This document shows positions 35,924 to 55,364 of a stretch of DNA of 64,000 nucleotides, in pieces. Within the stretch, counting starts at the first letter, position 1. Every line of letters begins with the position of its first letter. The stretch comes from Nakamurella flava (lineage in GTDB: Bacteria > Actinomycetota > Actinomycetes > Mycobacteriales > Nakamurellaceae): NCBI RefSeq assembly GCF_005298075.1, contig NZ_SZZH01000001.1:248001-312000 (forward strand), in the 5' to 3' direction. Below the pieces are notes generated by a model. The model was not told the DNA's origin. It saw nothing but the letters and a program-made list of their open reading frames with translations, and made no database searches. The position numbers were made by a program, and so were the translations under genes.

Positions 35924-37480
35924 TCACAGACCGGAGGCGGCCGCCTTGCGGGTGGCGGCCTGCAGGGCGTCCCACGAGGACAGCGTCGACTCGCGCAGCG
36001 AGCGGTACACGCCGAAGAAGTCGTCGTAGATCGCGGTCTTGCGGCTGTCGGGCTCGTACTCGCGCACGATGTTGACGGTCGCGTCGGCACCCTCGGCGTA
36101 GCTGGAGAAGATCCCGGCGCCGACGCCGGCGACGATCGCCGCACCCTTGGCGCCGAACTCGGTGCCGGCCGGGATGATGATCCGGCGGCCGAGGACGTCG
36201 GCGAAGATCTGCGCCCACACGGCGCTGTTGGCGCCGCCGCCGGCCATCCGGACGGTGTCGACCTGGGTCGGGATGGCGTCGAGGCAGTCGCGGATGCCGT
36301 AGGCGACACCCTCGTACACCGCGCGCAGCAGGTGGAAGCGGGTGTGGCTGCCGGTGATGCCGTTGAACGAACCGCGGGCGCTCGGCTTGACGAACGGCGC
36401 ACGCTCGCCGCCGGGGGCCAGGTAGCCGTGGAAGATGACCCCGGCGCTGCCGACGGGGGTGTCGTTGAGGGCCTGGTCCAGGTACTTGAACAGCTTGACG
36501 TTGTTGGCCGACGCCTCGTTGCGGAACGGCTCGCCGAACTCCCGCAGGAACCAGTCGAGGTTCGGGGTGCAGTTGTTCATGCCCAGGGCGCGGATCCAGG
36601 TGTCCGGGCCGTGCGGGATCATCCAGCCGACGTCGCGGGGCTCGATGGTCTCACCGATGCTGTCGGTGGCCACCGTGACGATGCCGGCGGTGCCGACGAC
36701 GGCCATGCAGTCGCCGGGGCGGGCCACGCCGACGCCCAGCGAGGACGCGGTGATGTCCATCTGGCCCTTGTAGACCGGGGTGCCCTCGGCCAGCCCGGTG
36801 ACGCCGGCGGCGTGCTTGGTGACGGTGCCGCACAGGTCGGTGGGCTTGCGGATGGTCGGCAGCACCGACTTGGTCCGCTCGTCGAAGCCCCAGGTGTTGT
36901 TCACCTCGTCCGACCAGTCGCGGTTGCGGACGTCGATACCGGCCAGCGAGGCGTCGGAGGCGTCGGTGGACAGGTCGCCGGTCAGGTTGTACTCGACCCA
37001 GTCCTTGCACCACAGGTTCGTGGAGCCCTCGAGCTTCTCGGGCTCGTTGTCCTGCCGCCAGCGCAGCAGGGCCGAGGTCGTGCCGGCGTACGGGCCGCAG
37101 CCGGAGATGTCGAACTGCTTGGAGACGGTCCCGTCGACGTACCAGCCGTCGATGATCTCGCCGGCGCGCCCGTCGGTCCACAGGTAGGTCGGCCCCTTCG
37201 GGCGACCGTCGGCGCCGACCAGCCAGGTGCCGTCGCCCTGGCCGGTGGCCGACAGGGCCTTGACGTCCTCGGCCTTGACCGAGCTGCCCACCAGGGCCTC
37301 GCGGATGGCCTCGGTCGCCGCGACCCAGACCTCGTCCATGTTCTCCTCGGCCAGGTGCGGCTGAGGGTTGGTGATCGGAACACTCTTCGCCCCGCGGGAA
37401 AGCTCGTTGCCCGCCTGGTCGAAGATCGCGGCCTTGACGACCGACGTTCCCGCATCCAGGCCGATGATGTAGTCAGCCAT
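35924..37480 (-). CDS. FGGY carbohydrate kinase A (erythritol kinase/LyxK-like)
   Basis: 518 residues from the ATG at 37480. N-terminal phosphate loop YIIGLDAGTSVVKAAIFD, then GQGDGTWLVGADGRPKGP and WTDGRA, which recall the EryA/L-xylulokinase branch; C-terminal FGGY signature region with GGGANSAVWAQIFADVLG and the EFGAKGAAIVAG adenosine segment. Should phosphorylate a polyol or ketose with ATP in the cytosol. It shares a divergent control region, including the tandem operator at 37620-37638, with the Zn alcohol dehydrogenase. The branch assignment is from motif memory; substrate (tetritol, pentitol or ketopentose) is open. Confidence 0.88.
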   Translation of the reverse strand: MADYIIGLDAGTSVVKAAIFDQAGNELSRGAKSVPITNPQPHLAEENMDEVWVAATEAIREALVGSSVKAEDVKALSATGQGDGTWLVGADGRPKGPTYLWTDGRAGEIIDGWYVDGTVSKQFDISGCGPYAGTTSALLRWRQDNEPEKLEGSTNLWCKDWVEYNLTGDLSTDASDASLAGIDVRNRDWSDEVNNTWGFDERTKSVLPTIRKPTDLCGTVTKHAAGVTGLAEGTPVYKGQMDITASSLGVGVARPGDCMAVVGTAGIVTVATDSIGETIEPRDVGWMIPHGPDTWIRALGMNNCTPNLDWFLREFGEPFRNEASANNVKLFKYLDQALNDTPVGSAGVIFHGYLAPGGERAPFVKPSARGSFNGITGSHTRFHLLRAVYEGVAYGIRDCLDAIPTQVDTVRMAGGGANSAVWAQIFADVLGRRIIIPAGTEFGAKGAAIVAGVGAGIFSSYAEGADATVNIVREYEPDSRKTAIYDDFFGVYRSLRESTLSSWDALQAATRKAAASGL

Positions 37481-37619
37481 GCTGCTCCTCTGCAGTGAGG
37501 TGAGGTCCCGGGGGAGGGGATCCATGAGATTGAGCCCGCGCCGCAGCGCGACGGCCCGCATAGTGTGACCCGGCCCACGAAGATCCGCAATAGACAGGGC
37601 TGATCTTGTCTTCACAGTT

Positions 37620-37638
37620 CTAGACAGGGCTAGACAAG
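37620..37638. promoter_or_regulatory. Tandem operator A (FGGY kinase A / Zn-ADH)
   Basis: On the minus strand CTTGTCTAGCCCTGTCTAG: half-sites CTTGTCTAG and CCTGTCTAG in direct orientation, 10 bp apart. A partial extra copy (TAGACAGGGCTG) lies at 37591-37602. For the dehydrogenase, TAGCAT at 37664-37669 is a -10 box 8 bp before the ATG, so the operator covers about -40 to -58. Confidence 0.7.
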
Positions 37639-37677
37639 TCTGGCCGGGTCGGTCGACCACCACTAGCATCGGTTTCC

Positions 37678-38718
37678 ATGCGCGCCTTGGTGAAGTACGC
37701 GACCGGTCCGGACACCGTCGAACTGCGGGATGTCCCCGCCCCCACCGTCGGCCCCGGCCAGATCCTCATCGACGTGGCCGCGGTCGCCATCTGCGGCACC
37801 GACCGGTCGGCCATCGAGGGTGGACACGACATCGGCCGGGTGCCAAGGACTCTCGGACACGAGGTCAGCGGCGTGGTCGCCGAGATCGGCCCGGACGCCG
37901 ACACCGACCTGCAGGTGGGGGATCGGGTCACCACCGAGACCGACGCCTACCTGTGCCACCGCTGCGAGTACTGCCGCAAGGAGGAGTACCAGCGCTGCAT
38001 CAACCGCCGGGGTATCGGCACCACCGCCGACGGCGGCCTGGCCGACCAGCTGGTGATGCCGGCGCTGGCCGTCCATCGCCTGCCGGACAACGTCACCCTC
38101 GCGGAAGGGGCGCTCACCGAGCCGCTGGCCGTCTCGGTGCACGCCGTCGTCGAGCAGAGCCCGTCACTGGCCGGCCAGGTCGTCGTGGTCATCGGGCCGG
38201 GGGCCATCGGACAGCTGTGCGCCCAGGTGGCCCGGGCGGTCGGGGCGACCGTCGTGCTGGTCGGGCGCTCGCGGCACACCGACCAGTTCGAGCGGGCCCG
38301 CCGGGCCGGCATCCCGCACACCGTCGATTCCGAGACCACCGACGTGGCCGACTATGTCAAGAACCTGACCGGCGGCTACGGGGCCCACTCGGTGTACGAG
38401 TGCAGCGGCGCGCCCGGGGTGCTGGAGGGTGTCCCGCCGATGCTGCGCAAGGGCGGCCGCATCGTGCTGCTCGCCTTCTTCAAGACCCCACCGGCGGTCG
38501 ACGTCGACAAGCTGCTCAACTGGGAGTTCGAACTCGTCGGCGCCCGCGGGAAGAAGGCCTCCAGCTACCGCACCGCCCTGGCGCTGATGGAGCAGGGCAT
38601 GGTGGACCTCGACGCCGTCATCGGTGCCAAGCTCCCGCTCGACGACTGGGAGAAGGGCATCGAGCTGGTCGGTCGTGGCGTCAAGGTCGTGCTGGAAGTG
38701 CGCCCCGAAAGCTCCTGA
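37678..38718 (+). CDS. Zinc-dependent alcohol dehydrogenase (polyol or polyol-phosphate type)
   Basis: 346 residues. Medium-chain dehydrogenase pattern: catalytic Zn Cys in AICGTDRS (~37), GHEVSGVV, the four structural-Zn cysteines in CHRCEYCRKEEYQRC (~residues 97-111), and the Rossmann loop VVVIGPGAIGQLCAQ (~172). Oxidises a secondary or primary alcohol with NAD(P)+. The context with three sugar kinases suggests a polyol or polyol phosphate (arabinitol-phosphate-, threitol- or sorbitol-like). Very short or absent leader; no strong ribosome site before the ATG. Confidence 0.9.
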   Translation: MRALVKYATGPDTVELRDVPAPTVGPGQILIDVAAVAICGTDRSAIEGGHDIGRVPRTLGHEVSGVVAEIGPDADTDLQVGDRVTTETDAYLCHRCEYCRKEEYQRCINRRGIGTTADGGLADQLVMPALAVHRLPDNVTLAEGALTEPLAVSVHAVVEQSPSLAGQVVVVIGPGAIGQLCAQVARAVGATVVLVGRSRHTDQFERARRAGIPHTVDSETTDVADYVKNLTGGYGAHSVYECSGAPGVLEGVPPMLRKGGRIVLLAFFKTPPAVDVDKLLNWEFELVGARGKKASSYRTALALMEQGMVDLDAVIGAKLPLDDWEKGIELVGRGVKVVLEVRPESS

Positions 38719-38903: not shown

Positions 38904-40460
38904 TCAGAAACGGCTGGAGAACTCGGCCAGCGCGTTGTACTGGCCGGCGTTCGCGATGGCCTCGTACAGACCGCGGTACACCTTGTTGGCCTCGTCGTAC
39001 AGCTCGCGGGTGTCCTCGTTGGGCACGAACTCCGACTCGACGTTGACCATCGCGGCGACGGCGTCGTCGATCGACGGGAACGAGCCCGACCCGAAGGCGC
39101 CGAGGATGGCGGCACCCAGCACGGTGCACTCGCGCTCACGGGTGACCTTGGTCGGCTGGCCGATGATGTCGGTCATGATCTGGGCGAATCCGTCGGACTT
39201 GGTGCCGCCGCCGGTGAGCCGCAGGTCGGTGATGCCGCCCTTGATGTCGGAGTTGAAAGCGTCGACCACCATGCGCATCTCGTGGGCGCAGCCCTCGAGC
39301 AGTGCGCGCAGCATGTCGGCGCGGGTGTGGTTGAGACCGAGGCCGATCCATCCACCGCGGGAGGCGGCGTCGTAGTACGGGGTGACCTGGGAGACCAGGA
39401 ACGAGTGGAACATCAGCCCGTTGGCGCCGGGGGGCGCGGTGAGGGCCTTCTCGACCATGACGGCGTAGACGCTGCGGCCGGTCTTGTCCGCCTCGACCTG
39501 CTCCTCCATGCCCAGGTTGTCGCGCCACCACTTGAGGTTGGCGCCGAGGGAGAACGCGCCGCCCTCGATGTCCCACGCACCGGGGACGGCGTGACCGCCC
39601 CACCAGAGGTTGCGACCCTGGACCCGGTCCAGGCTGTCCAGGTGGGCGACCATGACACCGGCGGTACCGACGGTGAACTCGGCCTGACCCTGCTCGACGA
39701 CACCGGCCCCCATGGCGGCGCACTGCTGGTCGCCGGCGCCGCGGCACAGCGGGGTGCCCTCGGGGATCCCGGTGGCGAACGCCGCGGCCGCGGAGACGAC
39801 GCCGGCCTTGCCGGTGGGAATGCCGACGGGGGGCAGCTTGTCGCGGCTGACGCCGCACAGCTCGAGGATCTGGTCGCTCCAGTCGAGCTTCTCGATGTCG
39901 AGCATGCCGTTCAGAGTCAGCGAGGCCGGGTCGGTGACCCATTCCTCGGCACCCATCTTGAACAGGAAGTACTCCTGGCCATTGGCGAACCAGCGGGTCT
40001 TGTTGAACAGCTCGGGCTCATTGTCGCGCAGCCAGGCGAATTTCGCGGCCGACCACAACGGTGACAGCTGCATCCCGGTGTGGGTCTGATAGTCCTCGGC
40101 GGAAATGGTCTCCGCGAAGATGTCCTGGTACTTCAGAGCCCGGCCGTCGTTCCACACCAGGGACGGGGCGAGCGGGTTCTTCTCCTCGTCCAGCAGAATG
40201 AAAGTGCCGCGCTGACTGGAGAAGCCGACCGACTTGTAGGCCTCGGCGGGCAGGTCGGCGGCGGCGACGGCCTGCTTGCTGGCCGCGCAGATCCCGCGCC
40301 AGACGTCGTCGACGTCCTGTTCGATCCAGCCGGCGCGCGGCGAGGTACAGGGGTATTCCTGATATCCCTCGCCCAACCGCTGACCATTCTGATCGAAGAC
40401 CATCACGGTGCACCCGGTGGTGCCGGCGTCGATACCGACGAACGCCTGCGTCTCGGTCAT
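38904..40460 (-). CDS. FGGY carbohydrate kinase B (xylulokinase-like)
   Basis: 518 residues from the ATG at 40460. Motifs: AFVGIDAGTTGCTVMVFDQ phosphate-1, GWIEQDVDDVW, SSQRGTFILLD, AGDQQCAAMGAG in the sugar-binding region, and C-terminal LRLTGGGTKSDGFAQIMTD. Overall closest to XylB/xylulokinase-type members. Members of that branch phosphorylate D-xylulose and, in E. coli, also 1-deoxy-D-xylulose. It has its own promoter with tandem operator B and is followed at a distance by the terminator shared with the Zn-ADH. Confidence 0.85.
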   Translation of the reverse strand: MTETQAFVGIDAGTTGCTVMVFDQNGQRLGEGYQEYPCTSPRAGWIEQDVDDVWRGICAASKQAVAAADLPAEAYKSVGFSSQRGTFILLDEEKNPLAPSLVWNDGRALKYQDIFAETISAEDYQTHTGMQLSPLWSAAKFAWLRDNEPELFNKTRWFANGQEYFLFKMGAEEWVTDPASLTLNGMLDIEKLDWSDQILELCGVSRDKLPPVGIPTGKAGVVSAAAAFATGIPEGTPLCRGAGDQQCAAMGAGVVEQGQAEFTVGTAGVMVAHLDSLDRVQGRNLWWGGHAVPGAWDIEGGAFSLGANLKWWRDNLGMEEQVEADKTGRSVYAVMVEKALTAPPGANGLMFHSFLVSQVTPYYDAASRGGWIGLGLNHTRADMLRALLEGCAHEMRMVVDAFNSDIKGGITDLRLTGGGTKSDGFAQIMTDIIGQPTKVTRERECTVLGAAILGAFGSGSFPSIDDAVAAMVNVESEFVPNEDTRELYDEANKVYRGLYEAIANAGQYNALAEFSSRF

Positions 40461-40538: not shown

Positions 40539-40557
40539 CTATACCTGTATAGACAGG
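40539..40557. promoter_or_regulatory. Tandem operator B (FGGY kinase B)
   Basis: Minus strand CCTGTCTATACAGGTATAG: half-site CCTGTCTAT followed 10 bp later by the weaker CAGGTATAG; the centre also reads as an overlapping palindrome (CTATACCTGTATAG on the plus strand). Lies ~80 bp before the kinase B ATG, in the 124-bp gap after the AraM-like stop. Confidence 0.7.
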
Positions 40558-40584: not shown

Positions 40585-41979
40585 CTACAGGCCCCCGCCG
40601 GCCTGCGCCGCCCGCTCGAGCACGCGATCGAGCAGGGCGTCGTCCCAGCGGCCGGCGAACAGCAGCAGATCGGCAACGGTGAACCGGTCGCGCATGTACG
40701 GGAGGGTGCGCAGGGTCCATCGCGCCAGGTCGGCGTCGACCGACGGCGTCAGCTCGGAGAACCGACGGGGGGCGCCCCAATTGGCCAGCGCGGCGGCCGG
40801 CGTCTCCGGCGGTGCGGTCAGCCGGCGGAACACCGTCTCATGGCGGTTCCAGTCGGCGAAGAACGCGCCGATCGACTCCTGGTGGCTGTCCCAGGTCGCC
40901 ACCTTCTTGCTCACCGACGTCCAGCATTCCGCGCCCACCCGACCGGACGGGTCGACCTGCGCCCAGGACTGCTTCACGGTCTCCTCGAGGCCTTCCGGCG
41001 GCGCCATCCGGCTCGGGTCCAAGCGGCCGAGACCGACCTCGTCGAGGGCGATCTCCCACAGTGCGGCGGAGACGACGGAGGCGACGCCGACCTGCGCGCC
41101 GTGCAGATCGTGTTCGGTGTCCCGGGCCATGGCGGACATGTCCAAAAGATGGCTGATGAGGTGTTCGCACCCGGACAGTCCCGCGGTGGTCCCGGTGTGA
41201 CCGATGCCGAGCCCGCCGATCGTCAGCGTGTCCACCAGCGCGTCCAAGGCGGCCGGGTCGTCGGACGGGGTGTCGATCAAAGCCTGGGCGATCTCCCGGA
41301 CCGGGGTGATCGAATCCTCGACCCAGGTGGTGTCCAGGCCCAGCGCGTTGGCCAGGTACCAGTCGGCGGGGGAGGACCAGACGGCCGCCGCATCGCCCAC
41401 CCCGGAACGGGTCAGCTTCGCCGGTGCGCCGGCCAGCACGTCGTGATCGATGATCAGCGCGCCGGGCCACGTCGTGGGCAGGGTGCGCTTGGCGCCGTTG
41501 CGGACCAGGACGGAGAGTGAGTCGGAGTAGCCGTTGACCGACGCGGCGGTCTGCACCGCCACCAGCGGGATGCCCAGGTCGGCGGCGACCGCCTTGGCCA
41601 GGTCGCTCACGGTTCCGGACCCGACGGACAGCAGACCGCCGACCCCGCGGGCCGCGGCGATCGCGGCATCGACCGTGGTCTCGTCGAGGACGGTCCCGTG
41701 CGCGCCCTGCTGCGCGACGACGTCCCGGAGGGGGCGGTCGCCCAGCGCGGCCCGGACGACGTCCAGCAGGTCACGGTCACCGAACCGCTTGGCGGTGCCG
41801 TCGTGCAGCAGCGCGAGCTCACCGTCCGGTGCGATGTCCACGACGATGGCCGGCAGTTCGGCAAGGGCGCCCGGGTAAGACGGAATGGTCCGCAGGGGAA
41901 GTTCCCAGGAGGCCGCGGCGGCCGCCGCCGCACCCGCCCCCTTCGGGTCGGCGGGGGCGGATGCGGGGACGGCGTTCAT
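40585..41979 (-). CDS. sn-Glycerol-1-phosphate dehydrogenase-like protein (AraM/EgsA family)
   Basis: 464 residues; the iron-containing alcohol dehydrogenase fold with the NAD loop GGLLSVGSGTVSDLAKAVA (~residue 95) and metal ligands expected from GVGDAAAVW (Asp), SGCEHLISHLLDM (His) and HGAQVGVA (His). AraM of Bacillus makes sn-glycerol-1-phosphate from dihydroxyacetone phosphate; here it may run in either direction or act on another polyol phosphate. Its ATG overlaps the stop of the HAD-IIA gene (ATGA), repeating the araL-araM adjacency of Bacillus subtilis. Last gene of the E1-E2 operon. Confidence 0.87.
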   Translation of the reverse strand: MNAVPASAPADPKGAGAAAAAAASWELPLRTIPSYPGALAELPAIVVDIAPDGELALLHDGTAKRFGDRDLLDVVRAALGDRPLRDVVAQQGAHGTVLDETTVDAAIAAARGVGGLLSVGSGTVSDLAKAVAADLGIPLVAVQTAASVNGYSDSLSVLVRNGAKRTLPTTWPGALIIDHDVLAGAPAKLTRSGVGDAAAVWSSPADWYLANALGLDTTWVEDSITPVREIAQALIDTPSDDPAALDALVDTLTIGGLGIGHTGTTAGLSGCEHLISHLLDMSAMARDTEHDLHGAQVGVASVVSAALWEIALDEVGLGRLDPSRMAPPEGLEETVKQSWAQVDPSGRVGAECWTSVSKKVATWDSHQESIGAFFADWNRHETVFRRLTAPPETPAAALANWGAPRRFSELTPSVDADLARWTLRTLPYMRDRFTVADLLLFAGRWDDALLDRVLERAAQAGGGL

Positions 41980-42818
41980 GAGGAGGTCCTGATCTCCTGC
42001 CGACCGGAATCGAGCAGGGGGATGAGTTCGTCGATGGACTCGAGCACCAGATCGGGCTGCAGTTCGGCCGGGGCCGCCTCCAGCATGGCGCGATCGGTCT
42101 CGCCGGTGAGCACCAGCGCGCTGATCATGCCGTTGTTGCGGGCGAACGCGATATCGGTGGACAACCGATCACCGACCATGACGGTGGTCGTCGGGTCGAG
42201 ACCCGTTGCCCAGCTGATGATGTCGAACAGACCGCGTTCGGGCTTGCCGAAGACGGCCTCGCACTCGACGCCGGTCCCCGCGGTGATCGCCGCGGTGATG
42301 CACGCCGCGTCGGGTTCGCCGCGGCCACCCGGGAACGGGCAGAACCGGTCCGGATTGGTGGCCACCAGCCGGGCCCGCTTGTGGAACCAGAGGGCGTCGA
42401 ACGCGATCTGCAGCTTGCGGTACTCGAAGGTCCGGTCGTACGAGCTGATCACCAGGTCGATCTGCTCGGGATCCTCGCTGATCCGGACGCCGGCCGCGGA
42501 CAGCGCCTCCCACAGCGGCTGCTCGCCGATGGGGAAGACCGCGGCGCCCGGCATCACGGTGGTCACCCACTTGACCGTGGCGGCCAGTGAGGTGAACACC
42601 TCGGCCTCGTCCGTCGGGATACCGAGCCCGGTGAGCTTGTCGGCGTAGGTCGCGGTGGACTTCGTCGGGTTGTTGCTGCAGAAGACGGTGCGCCGACCGG
42701 TGGCGCGCAACGTCTCGATGAGACGTTGCGCGCCCGGCAGAAGACCGTCGCCCAGGTAGATCGTGCCGTCCAGATCGAAGACGGCGGTCTCGATGGTGTG
42801 GGTCGTCTGTGCGGTCAT
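41976..42818 (-). CDS. HAD-IIA sugar phosphatase (NagD/AraL-like)
   Basis: 280 residues from the ATG at 42818, eight bases after the E2 stop. HAD motif I in TAVFDLDGTIYLGD (nucleophile Asp ~15), motif II FCSNNPTKS, motif III Lys in VFGKPERGLFD, motif IV VMVGDRLSTDI. NagD/AraL enzymes dephosphorylate a broad range of sugar phosphates and are thought to relieve sugar-phosphate stress. Its pairing with an AraM homologue matches the Bacillus araLM order. Confidence 0.9.
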   Translation of the reverse strand: MTAQTTHTIETAVFDLDGTIYLGDGLLPGAQRLIETLRATGRRTVFCSNNPTKSTATYADKLTGLGIPTDEAEVFTSLAATVKWVTTVMPGAAVFPIGEQPLWEALSAAGVRISEDPEQIDLVISSYDRTFEYRKLQIAFDALWFHKRARLVATNPDRFCPFPGGRGEPDAACITAAITAGTGVECEAVFGKPERGLFDIISWATGLDPTTTVMVGDRLSTDIAFARNNGMISALVLTGETDRAMLEAAPAELQPDLVLESIDELIPLLDSGRQEIRTSS

Positions 42819-42826
42819 AAATGCGG

Positions 42827-44230
42827 TCAGACGACGATCAGCAGCGGGTTCTCGACCAGCTCCTTGAAGCGTGCCAGCCACTGGGCACCGACGACGCCGT
42901 CCACCGGACGGTGGTCGACCGAGAGCACGACCTTGACGATGGTGCGGACCTTGACCTTGCCCTTGTCGGTGACGACCGGGGTCGGGGTGGCCGCACCCAC
43001 GGCGAGGATGCCGGCCTGCGGCGGGTTGATGATGGCGTCGAACTCCTCGACCCCGAACATGCCCAGGTTGGAGATGGTGAGCGTGCCGCCCTCCAGCTCG
43101 GACTGCTGCAGCTTGCCGGCGTTGGCGCGGGCGACCGCGTCCTTGATGCGGCCCGAGAGCGACGACAACGACAGCGATCCGATGTCGCTGATCACCGGCG
43201 TGACCAGACCGCGCTCGCTGGCGACGGCCACCGCGACGTCGGCGGTCGGAGCCTGCAGGACGGCGTCCTCGCTCCACACCACGTTCATGTCGGGAACGTC
43301 CAGCAGGGCGCGGGCGGCGGCCTTGACGAGGAAGTCGTTGACCGACAGGCGCGTCGTGGACACCGCGTTGAGCTCGGCGCGGAGCTTGAGCAGCGCGTCC
43401 ACCTGCAGGGAGGTACGCAGGTAGAAGTGCGGCGCCTGCTGCTTGGACGCCTGCAGCCGGGAGGCGACCAGCTTGCGCAGCTTGGAGTGCGGCACCGCGT
43501 TCCAACCCGGGCGGGAGACCGCCGGAGCGGCGGCCGCGGCCGGAGCCGGAGCGGACTGGGGAGCGGGCGCATCCGGAGTGGGAGCGGGGGCCGGCGCCGA
43601 CTTGGCGCTCTCCACCGCCTTGCGGACGTCGTCGCGGACGATGCGGCCACCGGGGCCGGTGCCCTCGATGTCCGCGACGTCGAGCCCGGCCTCCTTGGCC
43701 AGCTTGCGGGCGATCGGGCTGGCGAAGACCCGGCCGTGGCTGCCACCGTTGGTGCTCGGCGCGCCCGCGCCGGCGGCCGGAGACAGCGGAGCCGCGGGGG
43801 CACCGGCAGACACCTCGGCCGGCACGGCCGGGGTGCTGGGATCCGGTGCGGCAGCCTCTTCGGGCGCCGACTTCACGGCCGCGTCGGCCTCGCCGCCGGT
43901 GCTCGGCTCGGCGGCCGCGGGCTTGTCGGAGCCACCGCCGGAACCGACACCGAGCTGGGCGACCAGCTTGTCGCCCTCGGCGGGGTCCTCGCCCTCGGCG
44001 AGGAGCACGGCGATCGGGTCGCCGACGGGAACGGTCGCGCCATCGGCGACCAGGAGTGCGTGCACGACGCCGTCGATGTCGGATTCGACCTCGACCACGG
44101 CCTTCTCGGTCTCCACGGAGGCCATGGCCTGGCCGCTGGAGATGGTGGCTCCGGCCTTGACGCTCCAGGCCTCCAGGACTGCCTCGTCGGCATCGGCCGA
44201 GACGCCGGGCATCCGGAACAGTGTTGCCAT
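42827..44230 (-). CDS. Dihydrolipoamide acyltransferase E2
   Basis: 467 residues from the ATG at 44230. N-terminal lipoyl domain with the lipoylated Lys in VETEKAVVEVES (~43), an Ala/Pro linker, a peripheral-subunit-binding domain (ASPIARKLAKEAGLDVADIEG, ~170-190), a second Ala/Pro linker and the acyltransferase core ending in SVDHRPVDG, with His and Asp of the HxxxDG active site. It transfers an acyl group from the E1-bound thiamine adduct to CoA. One lipoyl domain only. No E3 gene is nearby, so the complex must borrow a dihydrolipoamide dehydrogenase encoded elsewhere. Confidence 0.93.
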   Translation of the reverse strand: MATLFRMPGVSADADEAVLEAWSVKAGATISSGQAMASVETEKAVVEVESDIDGVVHALLVADGATVPVGDPIAVLLAEGEDPAEGDKLVAQLGVGSGGGSDKPAAAEPSTGGEADAAVKSAPEEAAAPDPSTPAVPAEVSAGAPAAPLSPAAGAGAPSTNGGSHGRVFASPIARKLAKEAGLDVADIEGTGPGGRIVRDDVRKAVESAKSAPAPAPTPDAPAPQSAPAPAAAAAPAVSRPGWNAVPHSKLRKLVASRLQASKQQAPHFYLRTSLQVDALLKLRAELNAVSTTRLSVNDFLVKAAARALLDVPDMNVVWSEDAVLQAPTADVAVAVASERGLVTPVISDIGSLSLSSLSGRIKDAVARANAGKLQQSELEGGTLTISNLGMFGVEEFDAIINPPQAGILAVGAATPTPVVTDKGKVKVRTIVKVVLSVDHRPVDGVVGAQWLARFKELVENPLLIVV

Positions 44231-44280
44231 CAGTTCGTCGTCCTTACTGGATCGGTCACAGCTATGGGTGCGATGAGAGG

Positions 44281-44317
44281 GTCCGCCGGGACGGCGCGGT
44301 GGCGAGTCCCGGCGGAC
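44281..44317 (-). terminator. Strong hairpin between E1 and E2 genes
   Basis: Perfect 12-bp stem GTCCGCCGGGAC (44281-44292) with 44306-44317, 13-nt loop, in the 98-bp gap inside the E1-E2-HAD-araM operon. Probably a partial terminator or mRNA stabiliser setting the E1:E2 ratio; no separate operator is seen after it. Confidence 0.6.
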
Positions 44318-44328
44318 GGCAACACGTC

Positions 44329-46714: not shown

Positions 46715-46874
46715 TATAGGCTTTGGTGACAAGGCCGACATGGTGGTGGCGATCCGAGCGCGCCCACGCTCAGTCAAGGCGGTCGCGGCGCGCAGCAGGT
46801 GGATGGCAGACCGCAGACGGGTGAACGGCTCGTAGAATGGTTGTACAGGTACGACGATGTAAACAGCCGTTTCG

Positions 46875-46893
46875 CCTGTACCAAGATGTGCAG
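46875..46893. promoter_or_regulatory. Tandem operator D (gntR leader)
   Basis: CCTGTACCAAGATGTGCAG: half-sites CCTGTACCA and GATGTGCAG, 10 bp apart, the weakest match of the set. A further single half-site, GTTGTACAG, lies at 46840-46848 over the predicted gntR transcription start. Suggests autoregulation. Confidence 0.5.
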
Positions 46894-47830: not shown

Positions 47831-48619
47831 TCAGGCGGTCGCGGCCCGCGGTGCGGGGGTGCTGGCCACGGCGGCGCGCAGCGATTCGAGGTCGATGACT
47901 CCGTCGTGGCGCAGGTCGACCCCGGCCAGGAACTCGGCCGGTTCGCCGGGCTCGCCCAGGTTCGACACCACGGCACTGGCCGCGGGGAACGGATCGCGGG
48001 TGGTGAACGAGCTGACGGTGACGATGTGCCGGATCCCGGCCGCGGCCGCGGCCTTGGCGCCGGACTCGGAGTCCTCGATGACGACGGCCTCGTCGGCGGT
48101 GCGGCCGAGCTCGCGCAGGGTCATCAGGTAGATGTCCGGAGCGGGCTTCTTGGCCGGGACGATGTCCCCGGCCCACACGCCTTCCATCCGGGCCCGGGTC
48201 ATCGGCCCGACCACCGCGGCCAGTACGGCCTCCACGCTCTTGGTCGCCGAGGTCGACGCCACGGCCACCTGCCACCCGTCGTCCAGGGCGGACTCGATGA
48301 GCCGCTTGACCCCGGGACGGCCGGGCAGCTTGCCGGCCTCGACCAGCTCGACGTACAGCTTGCTTTTGAGCTTGTGGACCTCGGCGACCTTGGCCGCCTT
48401 GTCCTCGTCGGAGCCCAGGTCGATCTCCGGGTGCTGGGCCAGGTAGGCCAGCATCCGCTCCTTGCCGCCGCCGACCTTGAGCAGGCCGTCGTATTCCTGC
48501 TCAGACCACTGGAACGGCAGTCCCAGCTCGGTGAAGGCCTGGTTGAAGGCCACCAGGTGACCGTCGCGCTCGGTGTCGGCCAGGACGCCGTCGCAGTCCA
48601 GGATCAGGGCCTTGGTCAT
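47831..48619 (-). CDS. HAD hydrolase, CbbY/beta-phosphoglucomutase-like
   Basis: 262 residues. HAD motif I LILDCDGVLADTERDGH (nucleophile Asp ~8), cap domain, motif II VASTSATKS, motif III Lys in IVPAKKPAPDIYL, motif IV VIEDSESGAKAA. FAGD-like GVWAGDIV resembles CbbY, the xylulose-1,5-bisphosphate phosphatase. Its ATG shares one base with the stop of the aldolase gene (TCA/CAT overlap at 48619), so the two are translationally coupled. May remove dead-end bisphosphates or act directly on a pathway intermediate. Confidence 0.87.
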   Translation of the reverse strand: MTKALILDCDGVLADTERDGHLVAFNQAFTELGLPFQWSEQEYDGLLKVGGGKERMLAYLAQHPEIDLGSDEDKAAKVAEVHKLKSKLYVELVEAGKLPGRPGVKRLIESALDDGWQVAVASTSATKSVEAVLAAVVGPMTRARMEGVWAGDIVPAKKPAPDIYLMTLRELGRTADEAVVIEDSESGAKAAAAAGIRHIVTVSSFTTRDPFPAASAVVSNLGEPGEPAEFLAGVDLRHDGVIDLESLRAAVASTPAPRAATA

Positions 48620-49497
48620 CAGGCAGCGCTCCCGTTGCTGGCGGCCTTACCGGCCGAACCGAACTCGTTGATGTGCTCGGTGACGGTGGCCTGCACGGCC
48701 TTGTTGACGTCGTCGAACATCTTGACCGGCTCCCACTTGCCGGTCTCCTCGGCCTTGGCGATGTGGTCACGGGCCGCGTGCATGTACGCCAGCTTCACCG
48801 TGGTCGAGATGTTGATCTTGGCCACGCCGTTGGCGATGAACCGCTCGAAATCCTCCGGCGACAGACCGGTCCCGCCGTGCAGCACGACCGGCTTGTCGGT
48901 CAGCTTGCCCAGCTCGGTGACCCGGTCGAACTGCAGCACCGGCGAGGACTTGTACATGCCGTGGGAGGTGCCCAGGGCCGGAGCCAGCAGATCGGTGTCG
49001 GTGTCGTCGGCGACCTCGACGATCTTGTCGTTGCTGTAGGAGTGGGTGGCCTCGTCGCTACCGACCCCGTCCTCCACGCCCACGATGTTCTCGATCTCGG
49101 ACTCCACCCCGACGCCGGCGGCGTGGCACTCCTTGACCACCTCGCGGGTCTCGTCCCACGCCTGCTGCAGCGGGCGATCCGAGGCGTCGAACAGCACCGA
49201 CGACCAACCGTGCTTGATGACCTCGGTGATCACCGCGCGGTCCGGGCAGTGATCCAGGTGCAACGCGACCGGCACGGACACGGCACCAGCCGCATTCTTG
49301 TAGATCCCGGCGATGATCTCGGCACCCATGCTCTTCACCGTCTTGACGGAGGTCTGCAGGATGATCGGCGACTGCGCGGCCTCGGCCGCGGCGATGATCG
49401 CCCGCATCGACAGGTCGTCGACGATGTTCACAGCGGGTACGGCGTAACCGTCCCGCTTCGCCGCAGCGACGAGCTCGACGGTGTTCGCGATGGTCAT
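48619..49497 (-). CDS. Class II fructose-bisphosphate/ketose-bisphosphate aldolase
   Basis: 292 residues from the ATG at 49497. Class II aldolase motifs: PVALHLDHCPD (~78-88, catalytic Asp and first Zn His), ESEIENIVG (~130), LAPALGTSHGMY (Zn His ~176) and VVLHGGTG (Zn His ~203), then a C-terminal NISTTVKLAY phosphate-binding stretch. Reversibly cleaves a ketose phosphate to dihydroxyacetone phosphate and an aldehyde. The GatY/KbaY/FBA branch cannot be set by eye. Leads an operon with the CbbY-like gene; -10 TAGGAT (minus strand of 49631-49636) next to operator E. Confidence 0.92.
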   Translation of the reverse strand: MTIANTVELVAAAKRDGYAVPAVNIVDDLSMRAIIAAAEAAQSPIILQTSVKTVKSMGAEIIAGIYKNAAGAVSVPVALHLDHCPDRAVITEVIKHGWSSVLFDASDRPLQQAWDETREVVKECHAAGVGVESEIENIVGVEDGVGSDEATHSYSNDKIVEVADDTDTDLLAPALGTSHGMYKSSPVLQFDRVTELGKLTDKPVVLHGGTGLSPEDFERFIANGVAKINISTTVKLAYMHAARDHIAKAEETGKWEPVKMFDDVNKAVQATVTEHINEFGSAGKAASNGSAA

Positions 49498-49641
49498 GGC
49501 GGTCCTTCGGTCGGGGTGAGGGTGGCTCACCCGGGTCGGTCAACGAGGAAGCGTGGGGGTGGGGCTGATCTCGGGTCGCAAGGGGCAGGAAACGTGATGC
49601 GCGCTGCCGCCCTGGCTGGCGTTGCTGTTCATCCTAACGAG

Positions 49642-49660
49642 CCTGTCTGGACTTGTATAG
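49642..49660. promoter_or_regulatory. Tandem operator E (aldolase-cbbY operon)
   Basis: Plus strand CCTGTCTGGACTTGTATAG: half-sites CCTGTCTGG and CTTGTATAG, 10 bp apart. It lies directly upstream of the leftward -10 TAGGAT (49631-49636 complement), so a bound protein would block the promoter. Confidence 0.75.
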
Positions 49661-49716: not shown

Positions 49717-50493
49717 TCAGCGCCCTGACCGAGCTCGGACCTCCCGAACCTCGCGCACGATGGACAGGAAGTTGTCGACGTTCACGCCGAAGCGCGCCAT
49801 GAACAGGCCGTCCGGTACCGCATCCTGCCGTGAGCCGGCCGCTTCCGCGACCGCAGAGTAGGTGCCCGGCTGGGCGCTACCGCCGTAGACGACCCGGGCG
49901 CCCGACGTGCGCTCGGCGATCATCGAGCGAACCGTGGCCACCGCGTCGGCGACGTGGTCGGCGGGGGCGGGTTGCGGCTGGCCGATGGCCCAGGCCGGTT
50001 CGTAGGCGACCAGGAGATCGGCTCCTTCCGGCAGACCCGAGAGCCAGGCGTCGAACTGCTGGGCCACCGCCTTTGCGGGGGAGATCGACTGCTCGGCCTC
50101 GCCGACGACGATGATCGGGGTGCGACCGGCCGCCGCCGTGGCAGCCACCTTGCGGCCGACCAGTTCGTCGTCCTCGCCGAAGTACCGCCGACGCTCCGGG
50201 TGACCGGCCATGACGAACGTGCAGCCCATCTCGGCCAGCAGGTCGGCGCTCACCTCGCCGGTGTAGGCGCCGGGTCCGTAGACCGAGACGTCCTGCGAGC
50301 CGACCAGGCCGCCGCCCCGGCCCAGGGTCTCGAGGAAGACGGGGATGAGCGGGAACGAGGGACAGCAGAAGAGGCCGGTGGCACCCTCCGGGTCGGAGGC
50401 GACCTCGGCGAGCACCCGCGGGCCCCATTCCTGTGCCTGGGCGAGCGAGAAGTAGCTCTTGGAGCTGCAGCCGACGAGTGTTTCGGGGAGCAC
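49717..50493 (-). CDS. Triosephosphate-isomerase homologue, divergent (possible tetrose-phosphate isomerase)
   Basis: 258 residues from a GTG at 50493 with GGAAGGGAA upstream. Catalytic residues of TIM are kept: Lys12 in CSSKSY, His in MAGHPERRR (~95-100) and Glu in AYEPAWAIG. But the hallmark NWKMN is CSSKS, GHSERR is GHPERR and the loop-6 GTG is GQP. Such changes are seen in TIM paralogues of tetritol pathways (EryH, DerI, LerI types), so it may isomerise a tetrulose phosphate rather than triose phosphate. The housekeeping tpiA would be elsewhere. Divergent from the GlpD-like gene with a shared operator. Confidence 0.85.
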   Translation of the reverse strand: MLPETLVGCSSKSYFSLAQAQEWGPRVLAEVASDPEGATGLFCCPSFPLIPVFLETLGRGGGLVGSQDVSVYGPGAYTGEVSADLLAEMGCTFVMAGHPERRRYFGEDDELVGRKVAATAAAGRTPIIVVGEAEQSISPAKAVAQQFDAWLSGLPEGADLLVAYEPAWAIGQPQPAPADHVADAVATVRSMIAERTSGARVVYGGSAQPGTYSAVAEAAGSRQDAVPDGLFMARFGVNVDNFLSIVREVREVRARSGR

Positions 50494-50561
50494 GGCGGAG
50501 GGTTCCCTTCCAAAGGCGGGCGACGGCCGCCGACCGGGGGGTCGACAGCAAGTGCACCTAT

Positions 50562-50580
50562 CTTGTTCAATCATGTACAC
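50562..50580. promoter_or_regulatory. Tandem operator F (TIM-like / GlpD-like)
   Basis: Plus strand CTTGTTCAATCATGTACAC: half-sites CTTGTTCAA and CATGTACAC, 10 bp apart. For the leftward TIM gene it falls between -35 TTGTGT and -10 TAGGTG (18-bp spacer) on the minus strand. Confidence 0.7.
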
Positions 50581-50649: not shown

Positions 50650-52323
50650 ATGGATGTTCTCGACCGCCCCTCTGTGGAGCAGCTGCAAGGCGCCCACTTC
50701 GACGTAGCTGTCATCGGAGCCGGTATCAACGGCGCCGCCGTGGCCCGGGACGCCGCCACGCGGGGTCTGTCCGTACTGGTGGTGGACAAGGCCGACATCG
50801 GGTCGGGCACGTCCAGCTGGTCCAGCCGGCTCATCCACGGTGGCCTGCGCTACCTCGAACACGGCGAGCTGCGGCTGGTCTACGAATCGCTGCACGACCG
50901 CGAGAAGCTGCTGCACATCGCCCCGCACCTGGTCACCCCGCTGCCCTTCGTGGTGCCGCTGTACAAGCACAACCACAAGCCCGGCTGGATGTTCCGGATC
51001 GGGATGTACCTCTACGACACGCTGTCGCTGCGCAAGTCGGTGCCCCGTCACCGCCGCCTGGATCGCAAGGCGATCAAGGTGGAACTCGGCTCGCTCAACC
51101 CGGAGGGCCTGTCCGGTGGTCTGCGGTACTACGACGGCCAGGTCGTCTTCGCCGAGCGGCTCGTGCTCGAGACCCTGATCTCGGCGGTCGAGGCGGGTGC
51201 CCGGTTCCTCACGTACGCGGAAGCCTCCGTCGCGGTCTCCGGCGGACGGGTCACCGGTCTGAAGGTGCACGACCAGCTCACCGGTCAGCAGTTCGACGTG
51301 CACGCCTCCGTCGTCGTCAACGCGGCCGGCCCGTGGGTCGACGAGGCGGGTGCCGGACTCCAGCTGGACCGGATGATCGGTGGCACCAAGGGCACCCACC
51401 TGGTGGTCGATCCCTTCCCCGGGGCTCCCGACGTGGCGCTGTACTACGAGGCCCGGTCCGACAATCGACCGATCCTGGTCATCCCGTGGAACGGGCGCTA
51501 CCTGATCGGCACGACGGACGACCGCTTCGAGGGCGACCTCGACGCCACGCGGGGTACCGACGACGAGATGGACTACCTGCTCACCGAGACCAACACGCTG
51601 ATCCCCGAAGCCGGGCTGACCCGTGACTCGGTGCTGTTCACCTACGCCGGGGTGCGCCCCCTGCCGTACCGCCCGGGCGTCAAGAGCGGCAACATCCCGC
51701 GGAGTCACCTGATCCTGGACCACGAGTCGATCGGCGGGCTGATCTCCATCGTGGGCGGCAAGCTGACCCCCCACCTGAGCCTGGGAACGGAGACGGTGGA
51801 CAAGGTCGCCGCCGTACTGGGGCGCAAGCTTCCGGCCTCCCGAACGGCCGAGACCGCGCTGCCGGGTGGAGCCTCCGACTGGCCGGCGGCCGCGCGGGCG
51901 CTGCGTCGGGAGCTGGCCGGTCACGACTACACGGCGGCCGTCGTCGACCGTCTGCTCGACGTCTACGGCACCCGGGTGCGGGTCCTGCTCGACCTCGTGA
52001 AGTCGGATCCGGCGCAGGGCGCTCTCATCGGCAGCGGCGACAGCGCACTGCTGACCGCCGAGGTCACCCTCGCCGTCAAGGCCGAGGGCGCCGTGCACGT
52101 GGCCGACATCCTGCACCGACGTTCCATGGTCGGTCTGCTGCCGACGCTCGGCCTGGACGTCGACCAGGCCGTGGCCGAGGTGGCCGCGCCGCTGCTCGGC
52201 TGGTCGGCCGAGCAGGTCGGGTCCGAGGTGGCCGCGCACCGCGAGTACGTCCGCCTCCGGCTCCTCGGCGGCGTGGACCGGGCCGTGCTCGACGAGGCGG
52301 GTCAGCCCGTGGCCACGTCGTGA
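50650..52323 (+). CDS. FAD-dependent glycerol-3-phosphate dehydrogenase family (GlpD/EryB-like)
   Basis: 557 residues; GGAAAGG ribosome site. FAD-binding dinucleotide loop VAVIGAGINGAAVARDAATR (~residues 19-38), the GlpD signature TSSWSSRLIHGGLRYLEHGE, and later GIRYYDG-like GLRYYDGQVVFAERLV. A C-terminal helical domain completes the GlpD size. Oxidises a polyol phosphate at C2 and passes electrons to quinone at the membrane. EryB of Brucella, which oxidises L-erythritol-4-phosphate, belongs to the same family, so either glycerol-3-phosphate or a longer polyol phosphate is possible. Confidence 0.92.
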   Translation: MDVLDRPSVEQLQGAHFDVAVIGAGINGAAVARDAATRGLSVLVVDKADIGSGTSSWSSRLIHGGLRYLEHGELRLVYESLHDREKLLHIAPHLVTPLPFVVPLYKHNHKPGWMFRIGMYLYDTLSLRKSVPRHRRLDRKAIKVELGSLNPEGLSGGLRYYDGQVVFAERLVLETLISAVEAGARFLTYAEASVAVSGGRVTGLKVHDQLTGQQFDVHASVVVNAAGPWVDEAGAGLQLDRMIGGTKGTHLVVDPFPGAPDVALYYEARSDNRPILVIPWNGRYLIGTTDDRFEGDLDATRGTDDEMDYLLTETNTLIPEAGLTRDSVLFTYAGVRPLPYRPGVKSGNIPRSHLILDHESIGGLISIVGGKLTPHLSLGTETVDKVAAVLGRKLPASRTAETALPGGASDWPAAARALRRELAGHDYTAAVVDRLLDVYGTRVRVLLDLVKSDPAQGALIGSGDSALLTAEVTLAVKAEGAVHVADILHRRSMVGLLPTLGLDVDQAVAEVAAPLLGWSAEQVGSEVAAHREYVRLRLLGGVDRAVLDEAGQPVATS

Positions 52324-52707: not shown

Positions 52708-54213
52708 TCAGTCGGTCGAGACCTTCTGGGCCCAGCCCTTGGTCAGCTCGCGGGCCTGCTGCCAGCCGGCGTACATCGACTCGGCCTGGTCGCGGCTCAT
52801 GGACGGCTCGAAGCGACGGTCCTCCTGCCACTTGCTGGCCACCTCGTCCAGCGAGGAATAGATGCCGGTCGACAGGCCGGCCAGCAGCATCGTGCCGAAC
52901 ACGGTCGCCTCGGAGATGACCGGCCGGACGACCGGCACGCCGAGGATGTCGGCCTGCAGCTGGCACAGGAAGTTGTTCTTCACCGCGCCACCGTCGACCC
53001 GCAGCTCGGGGATCGAGATGGAGCCGTTGGAACCCTGCAGGGCGGCGTCGACCACGTCGCGGGTCTGGTAGACCATCGACTCCACGGCGGCCCGGATGAT
53101 GTGCAGACGCGTGGTGGCGTTGCTGATCCCGATGATCGCGGCGCGGGCGTAGGGATCCCAGGTCGGCGCGGACAGGCCGGTGAAGGCCGGGATCAGGTAG
53201 ACGCCCTGGGTGCTGGGCACCTGGCCGGCGTACCACTCGGAGTCGGGGGCCGCGTGGATGAGCTTCATGTCGTCGCGCAGCCACTGCATGGTCTTGCCCA
53301 TGGCGAAGAGCACGCCTTCGATCTCGTACGTGGCCTTGCCCTGCACCCCCCACGCCATCGACGGGGTCAGGCCGGGGATCCGCTGCGGGCTGGTACCGCA
53401 GTTGATGTTCAGGACGCCCGCGGTGCCGTAGGTCATCTTGTTCTGGCCCGGGCTGAAGGCGGCCTGGCCGAACAGGCCGGCCTGCTGGTCACCCATGTTG
53501 GAGGCGATCGGGACGGCGGCACCGAAGGTGGCGCTGAGGTCGCCGACAACCGCGTCGGAGGGCACGATCTCGGCCAGCATCCGCTTGGGGATGTTGTAGC
53601 CGGCGAGGAGCTCCTCGTCCCACTCGAGCTTTTCGAAGTTGAACATCATGGTGCGCGAGGCGTTCGAGTAGTCGGTGACGAACGACTTGCGGCCGGTGAG
53701 GTTCCAGATCAGCCAGGTGTCGACCGTGCCGGCGAGCAGCTCGCCGTTCTCGGCCCGCTCCTGCGCCCCGGGGACCTGGTCCAGGATGAAGCGGATCTTG
53801 GAGGCGGTGTAATAGGCGTCGGGGATGAGACCCGTGCGCTCCTCGATCTTCTCGCCGAGGCCGGCGTTGACCCAGTCCTCGACGACGCCGACGGTCTGAC
53901 GCGAGGCCCACACGACGGCGTTGTAGATCGGGCGCCCGGTGTCCTTCTCCCAGACGATCCCGGTCTCGCGCTGGTTGGTCAGGCCGGCCGCCGACAGATC
54001 GGAGGGCTGCAGCTTGGCCTGCCGCAGCGCGGCCCGGATGACCTCGAGCTGGACGTTGAGGATCTCCATCGGATCGTGCTCGATCCAGCCGGCCCGCGGG
54101 TAGATCTGAGTCAGTTCGGCGGCCGCCAGGCCGACGACCTCACACTCCTCGTTGATGATGAACGCACGGGCACCCGTGGTTCCTTCGTCGATGCCCAGGA
54201 TGTACCTAGTCAC
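52708..54213 (-). CDS. glpK: Glycerol kinase-like FGGY kinase (GlpK type)
   Basis: 501 residues, the GlpK length. Motifs match glycerol kinase: GIDEGTTGARAFI phosphate-1 loop, LTNQRETGIVWEKDTG (Arg and Glu that bind glycerol), Tyr in DAYYTASKIRFIL, DTWLIWNLTG, DYSNASRTMMFN, and NMGDQQAGLFGQ (Asp/Gln substrate pair). The usual DQGTTSSR is DEGTTGAR here, so a modified substrate range is possible. Phosphorylates glycerol or a close polyol. Promoter TTGCCC-17-TAGGTT on the minus strand (54318-54323 and 54295-54300) directly follows operator G. Confidence 0.88.
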   Translation of the reverse strand: MTRYILGIDEGTTGARAFIINEECEVVGLAAAELTQIYPRAGWIEHDPMEILNVQLEVIRAALRQAKLQPSDLSAAGLTNQRETGIVWEKDTGRPIYNAVVWASRQTVGVVEDWVNAGLGEKIEERTGLIPDAYYTASKIRFILDQVPGAQERAENGELLAGTVDTWLIWNLTGRKSFVTDYSNASRTMMFNFEKLEWDEELLAGYNIPKRMLAEIVPSDAVVGDLSATFGAAVPIASNMGDQQAGLFGQAAFSPGQNKMTYGTAGVLNINCGTSPQRIPGLTPSMAWGVQGKATYEIEGVLFAMGKTMQWLRDDMKLIHAAPDSEWYAGQVPSTQGVYLIPAFTGLSAPTWDPYARAAIIGISNATTRLHIIRAAVESMVYQTRDVVDAALQGSNGSISIPELRVDGGAVKNNFLCQLQADILGVPVVRPVISEATVFGTMLLAGLSTGIYSSLDEVASKWQEDRRFEPSMSRDQAESMYAGWQQARELTKGWAQKVSTD

Positions 54214-54325
54214 GTGGTTGATTCTCCGATCAAGCGACAGCGGTGGCGCCGAGGGGCTTTTCCCGTCGGGCTCAGGGCCGCGGGCGATGCGGTCAACCTA
54301 GACCGGCTGTCCGATCCGGGCAAGA

Positions 54326-54344
54326 CTTGTACACACTTGTACGT
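54326..54344. promoter_or_regulatory. Tandem operator G (GlpK-like / membrane protein)
   Basis: Plus strand CTTGTACACACTTGTACGT: half-sites CTTGTACAC and CTTGTACGT, 10 bp apart, the most regular site of the set. For the rightward gene a near-ideal promoter TTGTAC (54327-54332)-17 bp-TAGTGT (54350-54355) runs through it; for the leftward gene it abuts the -35 box. Confidence 0.8.
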
Positions 54345-54434
54345 ACAGATAGTGTTTCCGCCGCGGCCCTCCCATCCGGGGGACGGGACCGCGATCCGTT
54401 CCCTACACCGTGGTACGCGTACGGAAGGCCGCTG

Positions 54435-55364
54435 ATGAACTTCGACCTGCTCTTTCTCCTGATGGCTGCTGGTGGTGGCTTCTTTGCCGCCGCCATCGGC
54501 GCACTCCACGCCTTCATCTTCACCGGCTTCATGGTGTTGCTGGGCAATGCCGTGATCATGGCCGGCGGAGGCCCGGCCTTCCTGAACGACGTGGCCTTCG
54601 GTCCGGTCTTCGGCCCGCACATCGCGTTCGCGGGCGGCGTCGCCGCGGCTGCGTACGCCGCGCGGGTCAGCGACAAGGTGGGCGGCAAGGACATCGGCGT
54701 TCCGCTGATCTCCATCGAGCGCATCGACGTGCTGCTCGTGGGCGCCGGGTTCGGCATGCTGGGCTACCTCATCAACCTCGGGGTCACGAAGATCCCGTGG
54801 TTCGGCACCCACACCGACACCGTCGCGTTCACCGTCGTCGTCTCGGCGATCATCGTCCGGCTGGCCATCGGTCGCGGCAGCCTGTTCGGCAACATCGACC
54901 AGCAGGCCGCCGGCTGGGGCCGCTTCGCGCCGAAGGACTCGGCCGCGTGGGTCCGCTACCACGAGAAGTTCGTGCCGAACTCGTTCCTCGGCTTCTTCGT
55001 CGGTCTGCTGTCCTCCGGGCTGGCCATGCTGCTGGCGCGGGCCTACCCCGATCTGGCGATCGCCACGGTGTTCTTCGGCATTTCGGCCGTCTCGCTGTTC
55101 TTCCTCAGCCTGGGCCTGAGCTTCCCCGTGACCCACCACATCACCCTGATCGCGGCGGTCGCCACCGTGAACTTCCTGCCCATCGTCGGCAACGAGATCG
55201 GCACCCTGTTCATCGGTGCGATCGCCGGCATGGTCGCCGCCTGGTTCGCGGAGTTCTTCGCCCGGTTCCTGCACGACCACGGCAACACCCACATCGATCC
55301 GCCGGCGGCCGCCATCTGGCCTGCCACCACGATCGTCCTGGCGCTTGCCGGGGTGCTCGCCTGA
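54435..55364 (+). CDS. Unrecognised polytopic membrane protein, candidate polyol transporter
   Basis: 309 residues from the ATG at 54435 (GGAAGG upstream). About eight or nine hydrophobic segments, starting MNFDLLFLLMAAGGGFFAA with no signal peptide. Two parts look alike: FGPVFGPHIAFAGGVAAAA (~residues 55-75) and FPVTHHITLIAAVATV (~230-246), each with a Pro-x-His pattern before a small-residue helix, suggesting an internal repeat with re-entrant loops. I do not recognise a transporter family. Its promoter contains operator G, shared with the GlpK-like gene, and the regulon has no other membrane transporter, so a role in polyol uptake is the simplest inference. Confidence 0.8.
   Translation: MNFDLLFLLMAAGGGFFAAAIGALHAFIFTGFMVLLGNAVIMAGGGPAFLNDVAFGPVFGPHIAFAGGVAAAAYAARVSDKVGGKDIGVPLISIERIDVLLVGAGFGMLGYLINLGVTKIPWFGTHTDTVAFTVVVSAIIVRLAIGRGSLFGNIDQQAAGWGRFAPKDSAAWVRYHEKFVPNSFLGFFVGLLSSGLAMLLARAYPDLAIATVFFGISAVSLFFLSLGLSFPVTHHITLIAAVATVNFLPIVGNEIGTLFIGAIAGMVAAWFAEFFARFLHDHGNTHIDPPAAAIWPATTIVLALAGVLA

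Follow-up and report, generated by a model that had tools for sequence, protein, structure and literature searches.

A predicted sugar gene cluster with shared tandem elements

We analyzed a 64,000-nucleotide stretch of the GC-rich Nakamurella flava genome (contig NZ_SZZH01000001.1, positions 248,001 to 312,000; hereafter the window, in whose own numbering positions are given) that contains a cluster of predicted sugar and polyol genes whose control regions share a short tandem element. An earlier note on this DNA had proposed that one regulator, probably the GntR-family protein encoded at 46986–47732 (+ strand), controls the whole cluster through this element, and our analysis supports a single regulon with that protein, a GntR/HutC-subfamily member, as its likely regulator, a reading to which we assign a probability of about 0.82.

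The cluster begins with an FGGY kinase, K1 (35924–37489, −; start approximate), a Tdh-like member of the Zn-dependent alcohol dehydrogenase family (37678–38718, +), a second FGGY kinase, K2 (38904–40438, −; start approximate), and a Fe-ADH-type dehydrogenase resembling glycerol-1-phosphate dehydrogenase (40585–41979, −). Before gntR come a HAD-IIA phosphatase (open reading frame as listed 41976–43505, −; the HAD domain is its C-terminal half and the true start is probably downstream), the E2 acyltransferase of a 2-oxoacid dehydrogenase-type complex (42827–44596, −; start uncertain) and a fused E1 alpha/beta (44329–46510, −; start approximate). Beyond gntR lie a HAD-IA phosphatase (47831–48619, −), a class II fructose-bisphosphate-aldolase family protein (48619–49530, −), a triosephosphate isomerase (TIM) homologue (49717–50499, −; start approximate), a GlpD-like FAD-dependent oxidoreductase of the glycerol-3-phosphate dehydrogenase family (50650–52323, +) and a glycerol-kinase-like FGGY kinase, K3 (52708–54213, −), which scores 627.6 bits against NF000756 (cut-off 498) and 574.0 bits against TIGR01311, short of the cut-off of 590.35. 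The last gene (54435–55364, +) encodes what, on inspection of the translation by eye, is probably a polytopic membrane protein; it matched no NCBIfam family, has a 72% counterpart in a second species of the genus (G002) and is a possible transporter for the regulon's substrate. The substrates suggested by enzymes of the glycerol-kinase, GlpD, TIM, aldolase and E1/E2 types are C3–C5 polyol or ketose phosphates, and the cluster is likely a sugar-phosphate or polyol regulon. Candidate pathways are those of erythritol, glycerol or apiose type; the domain calls do not decide between them, and a literature search returned nothing direct on the cluster's pathway.

All six control regions bordered by cluster genes carry the element, as the earlier note had claimed, and its seven 19-mers, each with two same-direction half-sites starting 10 bp apart, were found at the positions it gave (CnTGTnTAG reads on the + strand at four and on the − strand at 37620, 40539 and 46696). 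Between K1 (−) and the Zn-dehydrogenase (+), an operator array (37590–37648, −; core 19-mer 37620–37638) has extra half-sites in 10-bp phase at 37610 and 37590 and is partly conserved in G002. The predicted operator of K2 (40539–40557, −) consists of overlapping dyads (CTATACCTGTATAGACAGG), and that between the E1/E2 operon (−) and gntR (+) (46696–46719, −) includes a perfect palindrome, CTATACATGTATAG (46706–46719), which is identical in G002 and nearly kept in Tessaracoccus; a second site claimed in this E1/gntR region (46875–46893, +) is unsupported. The predicted operator 5′ of the aldolase-HAD operon (49642–49660, +; genes on −) holds a CTTGTATAG block that recurs in G002 and before the aldolase gene of a Cryobacterium plasmid, and another (50562–50580, +) separates the TIM homologue (−) from the GlpD-like oxidoreductase (+). 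Some elements do overlap −35/−10-like boxes: the predicted operator between K3 (−) and the membrane protein (+) (54326–54355, +) lies within a promoter-like TTGTAC-17-TAGTGT, present at 54327–54355 exactly as described before and conserved in G002 (there TTGTAC-17-TACTGT), and the Cryobacterium aldolase site falls inside TTGTCT-17-TATAGT.

Significance and architecture of the element

With leave-one-out matrices applied to ~128,000 window positions, the seven sites rank 8, 7, 6, 13, 5, 13 and 9 in order of position. A relatives-only matrix was built from 16 sites of G002, Tessaracoccus, Cellulomonas and the Cryobacterium plasmid, using no window sites and excluding the transketolase and own-genus RuBisCO-like loci described below (a Tessaracoccus border site was included). 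The sequences scored with it were the window, the fetched loci, 360 kb taken as background from other parts of this genome, and genome hits preselected by pattern. By position, the window sites score 21.9, 25.9, 27.5, 11.4, 27.1, 21.3 and 22.4, compared to top background scores of 15.3, 13.3, 13.1 and 12.9. On these scores, six of the seven sites stand firm (21.3–27.5 versus a background maximum of 15.3), whereas 46875 is at background level, its 11.4 being attained four times in the 360 kb; since, in addition, the surroundings of gntR in G002 showed no counterpart, this seventh site is unconfirmed, and to that extent the original seven-site claim has to be cut back.

Spacing was evaluated without being used for selection: 23 control regions were taken according to gene borders, and the best single 9-mer (CNTGTNTAG) in each served as anchor; two anchors (window K3/membrane protein and G002 TIM/GlpD) fell on 9-mers other than the site and were still counted. 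The forward CNTGT core turns up again 10 bp to either side of the anchor, with z 7.2 at −10 and z 4.9 at +10. Nine of the 23 regions have a complete CNTGT at one of these two offsets; in 150 control draws, taken from randomly chosen and mostly coding DNA elsewhere, the number of such regions averaged 0.05 and never exceeded 1. On the reverse strand the core reappears at −11, −1 and +9, so the term "direct repeat" covers half of the pattern.

Column statistics for 26 aligned sites describe a repeated 10-bp unit of approximately ACNTGTMYAK, which contains GTMTAKAC, that is, the published consensus core GT-MTAK-AC of HutC-subfamily operators (PMC4494728). This table omits 46875, the gntR regions of Cellulomonas 73-92 and Cryobacterium, stray matches and Cryobacterium site 11521, although the latter was among the 16 matrix training sites. 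The core, with GT and AC 4 nt apart, is present at a match of at least 6/8 in all 26 sites, in at least one of two registers, and 19 of the 26 hold two cores with centers 10 bp (one helical turn) apart; these counts are partly imposed by selection, part of the core lying in the matrix that chose the sites, and the chance of one core given GT, 0.084, is uncorrected for site selection. Letters that would complete the dyads recur as well, with A at −1 (17/26), 9 (16/26) and 19 (13/26) and C at 20 (18/26), and all of these except A at 9 fall outside the selected 19-mer. Because the 10-bp unit contains the HutC core and cores occur in every site, direct repeat and palindrome are, as read from the aligned letters, two views of one period-10, dyad-symmetric array. 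The earlier note had set direct half-sites apart from palindromes, an opposition that does not survive, the unit itself being dyad-symmetric and fitting the HutC consensus.

Counting consecutive half-sites at a match of at least 3/4 in a 27-site table that includes 46875, three or more units were found in 8/27 sites (the Cryobacterium aldolase site, with half-sites 20 bp apart and no middle one, was excluded from the three-unit count). Four units, CTTGTACGAG-CTTGTATAGA-GTTGTCTCCA-CTTGTATAG, make up an array before a transketolase gene of G002. At the places tested, no reverse core of this array reaches 3/4, and the direct repeat can thus occur almost by itself.

Distribution of regulator and motif

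At E ≤1e-45 and with its own genome counted, the GntR protein was found in two of 17 congeners, in 2 of 397 sampled members of the order and in 1 of 394 of the class. G002 carries the cluster in the same gene order with a GntR protein 77% identical, and its footprints CTTGTTCAATCNTGTACANACAAGCAA (TIM/GlpD) and GGACTTGTATAG (aldolase) stand out against diverged flanks. Orthologues were also found in Tessaracoccus sp. SD287 (59% identity), in Cellulomonas sp. HZM and two Cellulomonas metagenome-assembled genomes (52.5–54%) and on Cryobacterium plasmid pA10BH1 (48.8%); a 34-residue match (L036) was dropped. The motif accompanies these orthologues in the own genus and all three named genera, down to 48.8% identity, and a window-trained matrix places its top match before the aldolase, gntR or a neighboring operon in each orthologue locus, such that the elements are kept in orthologous clusters from G002 to the Cryobacterium plasmid. 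In the Cellulomonas loci, the window genes recognised besides gntR are limited to aldolase and HAD, which a Dak-type kinase adjoins in HZM and 73-92. Among 28 loci of other HutC-type homologues (30–35% identity), the best matrix score was 16.1. The HZM gntR locus occurs twice on NZ_JEOE01000014.1, in opposite orientation (L032 and L033), through either a large duplication or an assembly artefact, and L033 was left uncounted. The pA10BH1 version of the cluster (L039) comprises dhaKL, an aquaporin, TIM, RpiB and a split transketolase, and adjoins a Tn3 transposase and a recombinase, which suggests mobility.

Two further loci lie far from the window. The single transketolase gene found in this genome has an array-type site (C1:972876–972894; 8877–8895 of locus L084) ~105 bp upstream of its matched start; of the two transketolase genes in G002, that at 5321206 follows the four tandem units. 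Across 19 transketolase loci of 17 genomes, sites scoring 24.0 and 23.9 occur in the two GntR-bearing genomes, and the remaining 17 loci, one of which (in G003) has no upstream sequence, peak at ≤12.0. The site is therefore present in 2/2 genomes with GntR compared to 0/14 GntR-less genomes having upstream sequence (Fisher P 0.008), and transketolase, a central-metabolism enzyme, appears to belong to the regulon. The second G002 transketolase (C1:2498603–2500711, L102), 98% identical to the motif-bearing copy over the match, lacks an upstream motif, and its matched stretch contains a single in-frame TGA.

The other distant locus (C3:79.4–85.5 kb, L104) carries a three-unit array, with a site at C3:85456 upstream of a RuBisCO-like gene beyond which TIM, FGGY-kinase and GlpD-like genes follow on the same strand. 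The RuBisCO-like protein is near MtnW but below its cut-off; its gene is present in 2/17 congeners, only those with GntR, and the G002 counterpart is array-preceded too. A related gene in Tessaracoccus diverges from a glycerol-kinase-like gene, with a three-unit array at the border. With these two loci added, the predicted regulon would be larger than the window shows.

Several results weigh against a regulon governed by the GntR protein. Profile R1 (a sequence profile built without window sites, cut-off E ≤10) counts on both sides: its four matches, split evenly between this genome and G002, all fall inside the cluster and the 15 other congeners have none, which favours the regulon, but it is insensitive and recovered 2/7 window sites. 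Pattern CNTGTNYANNCNTGTNYA at one mismatch matched 16 times in this genome versus 16 for the reversed control, 25 versus 18 times in G002 and 5–20 times in each of the 15 genomes without GntR; the longer CNTGTNYANNCNTGTNTAG at two mismatches matched 26 times in this genome versus 58 for its reverse, and misses 54326, which has three mismatches. Cellulomonas sites are weaker (15.4–18.5 with the window matrix), a match of 16.1 by the same matrix lies inside a gene of Cellulomonas L032, and a motif-like sequence scoring 18.8 (L039, 18768–18786) lies between backbone genes of the Cryobacterium plasmid, far from sugar genes. The Cellulomonas 73-92 and Cryobacterium gntR regions yielded no convincing site, and three of the 28 loci of other HutC-type homologues reach 15.0–16.1. 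A Paraburkholderia locus with a 39% homologue a few kb from a gene annotated 3-oxo-isoapionate kinase (L040) was dropped, having no site above 8.7.

The loose patterns being non-discriminating, specificity rests on the matrix. Nine of the 26 CNTGTNYANNCNTGTNTAG matches score ≥18.9 with the relatives-only matrix: six fall at five cluster sites, one is C1:972876 and two are the overlapping matches C3:85456/85466. Next come matches of 17.0 (cluster) and 16.9 (C9:42219). The matrix scan that the earlier note had envisaged, applied here to pattern-selected matches, thus gives this cluster plus two related loci as its high scorers.

Regulator, mechanism and known relatives

We regard the GntR protein as the likely regulator because motif and orthologue co-occur, the transketolase sites included. 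Matches above cut-off to PF00392 (1.7e-19) and PF07702 (2.4e-38) give it an N-terminal GntR winged helix-turn-helix and a C-terminal UTRA domain. Its best NCBIfam match is HutC, at 138.2 bits versus the 220 of the TIGR02018 equivalog, and no hut genes are among the annotated cluster genes, which places it outside HutC proper. The nearest solved structures are YvoA (1e-37) and DasR (4e-27). IPSENEL and SRMT of the DNA-binding domain are identical in seven proteins (window, G002, Tessaracoccus, three Cellulomonas and Cryobacterium), and alignment to NagR/YvoA shows the Arg48 equivalent (in SRMT) and the wing glycine kept, with Asn (in PSEN) at the Arg38 position. In NagR, Arg38 reads G-5, Arg48 reads G-4, and Arg133 and Arg135 bind phosphate (PMC4333415). 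The pair of arginines that reads GG in NagR/DasR dre sites is thus incomplete here, and Asn in place of Arg38 would agree with NTGT rather than TGGT half-sites; both phosphate-binding arginines are kept, so a sugar-phosphate effector would fit.

We infer that the GntR protein represses its targets. The conserved SRMT arginine would let a dimer hold a single GT-MTAK-AC core, and the neighboring core, overlapping in ACNTGT, would receive a second dimer on the same DNA face. With two to four units, occupancy over the −35/−10 region would rise and transcription would be shut off; loading of the UTRA domain with a phosphorylated sugar would then switch on the cluster, transketolase and the RuBisCO-like operon together. 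The protein probably acts by occluding RNA polymerase, because the K3/membrane protein and Cryobacterium aldolase sites lie within their 17-bp-spaced promoter-like boxes. The arrangement of two dimers on adjacent cores is put forward tentatively, at somewhat less than even odds, and it faces the difficulty that, with the cores 10 bp apart, ACNTGT would be contacted by both dimers, which may collide there. An extended form, which we consider rather unlikely, would have the repressor spread along one DNA face as dimers on overlapping HutC cores one turn apart, with the unit count (2–4) setting the strength of repression promoter by promoter and the extendable operator lattice coupling the sugar cluster and RuBisCO-like operon to transketolase.

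Two alternatives concern this geometry only. A single HutC dimer could occupy one palindrome per promoter, the second half-site being a weak accessory box that adds little, an arrangement that is credible though doubtful: all 26 sites hold at least one HutC core, and weaker boxes 7–12 nt from the center have been described in 23 orthologous groups (PMC4494728), but the second unit here is not weaker, having similar information content (partly imposed by site selection), and the second cores in 19/26 sites, the runs of at least three units in 8/27 and the four units before the G002 transketolase are more than one palindrome would call for. Alternatively, one dimer with its DNA-binding domains swivelled could read the direct repeat head-to-tail, as with repeats of the FarR, NagQ and NanR type. 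Same-direction half-sites at 10 bp are indeed the strongest signal, and the G002 transketolase array dispenses with reverse cores at the tested places; direct repeats (TGTATTAWTT) are on record for FarR (PMC4494728), and the DNA-binding domains of DNA-bound NagR are loosely attached (PMC4333415). A pure direct-repeat reader, however, would have no need of the four enriched dyad-completing letters listed above, and although these could also be plain parts of the repeated unit, we consider a head-to-tail reader unlikely.

A different kind of explanation, in which the element serves as a signal of a promoter or sigma factor, or is bound by another regulator, with gntR just a neighbor, draws on the overlap of some elements with −35/−10-like boxes. 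The element's period is 10, not 17; it is missing before transketolase in all 14 GntR-less congeners with upstream sequence, and in Cellulomonas it accompanies GntR where little else of the window's gene content is recognised. We regard this explanation as very improbable, and retain the GntR protein as the likely regulator of one regulon.

With HutC, the Pseudomonas histidine-utilisation repressor, the system shares the GntR DNA-binding domain, the UTRA domain and an operator core of the TGTA-N2-TACA type. It differs in its targets (predicted sugar/polyol enzymes rather than hut genes), in scoring below the equivalog cut-off and in its period-10 arrays, found at six confirmed window sites and reaching four units in G002. 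FarR, also called MngR, is of the HutC subfamily too, and the present elements resemble its sites in their same-direction half-sites 10 bp apart, but do not depart from the HutC palindrome consensus. For HutC itself, a 28-bp region carrying a Phut site made up of three half-sites has been reported, as has binding by oligomers as large as a tetramer or hexamer (PMC12977541). The FarR repeat is likewise ten letters long, and FarR, NagQ and NanR direct repeats are already published (PMC4494728), so the earlier note's view of how unusual such direct half-sites are is not supported in that form. The unit ACNTGTMYAK differs from all three in being dyad-symmetric and fitting the HutC consensus, and NanR is a FadR-subfamily protein; that study set FarR and NagQ sites aside as not alignable with the main group, and in it the exact function of accessory half-sites of GntR-family regulators is said to need experimental study (PMC4494728). 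NagR/YvoA and DasR remain the nearest structural relatives, distinguished by the residue at position 38 and by their half-sites. Direct repeats and extra half-sites are thus known in the GntR family; among the matches listed, no published description of this regulon, or of a HutC-type regulator with uniformly period-10 operators, was found.

Collectively, these results would define a well-bounded predicted regulon of six control regions and two distant loci. The 26 aligned sites offer material for studying how overlapping cores, set one turn apart, are read by a dimer of the HutC type, and the predicted tie of a rare regulator to transketolase and to the operon of an uncharacterised RuBisCO-like protein would narrow the search for the pathway.

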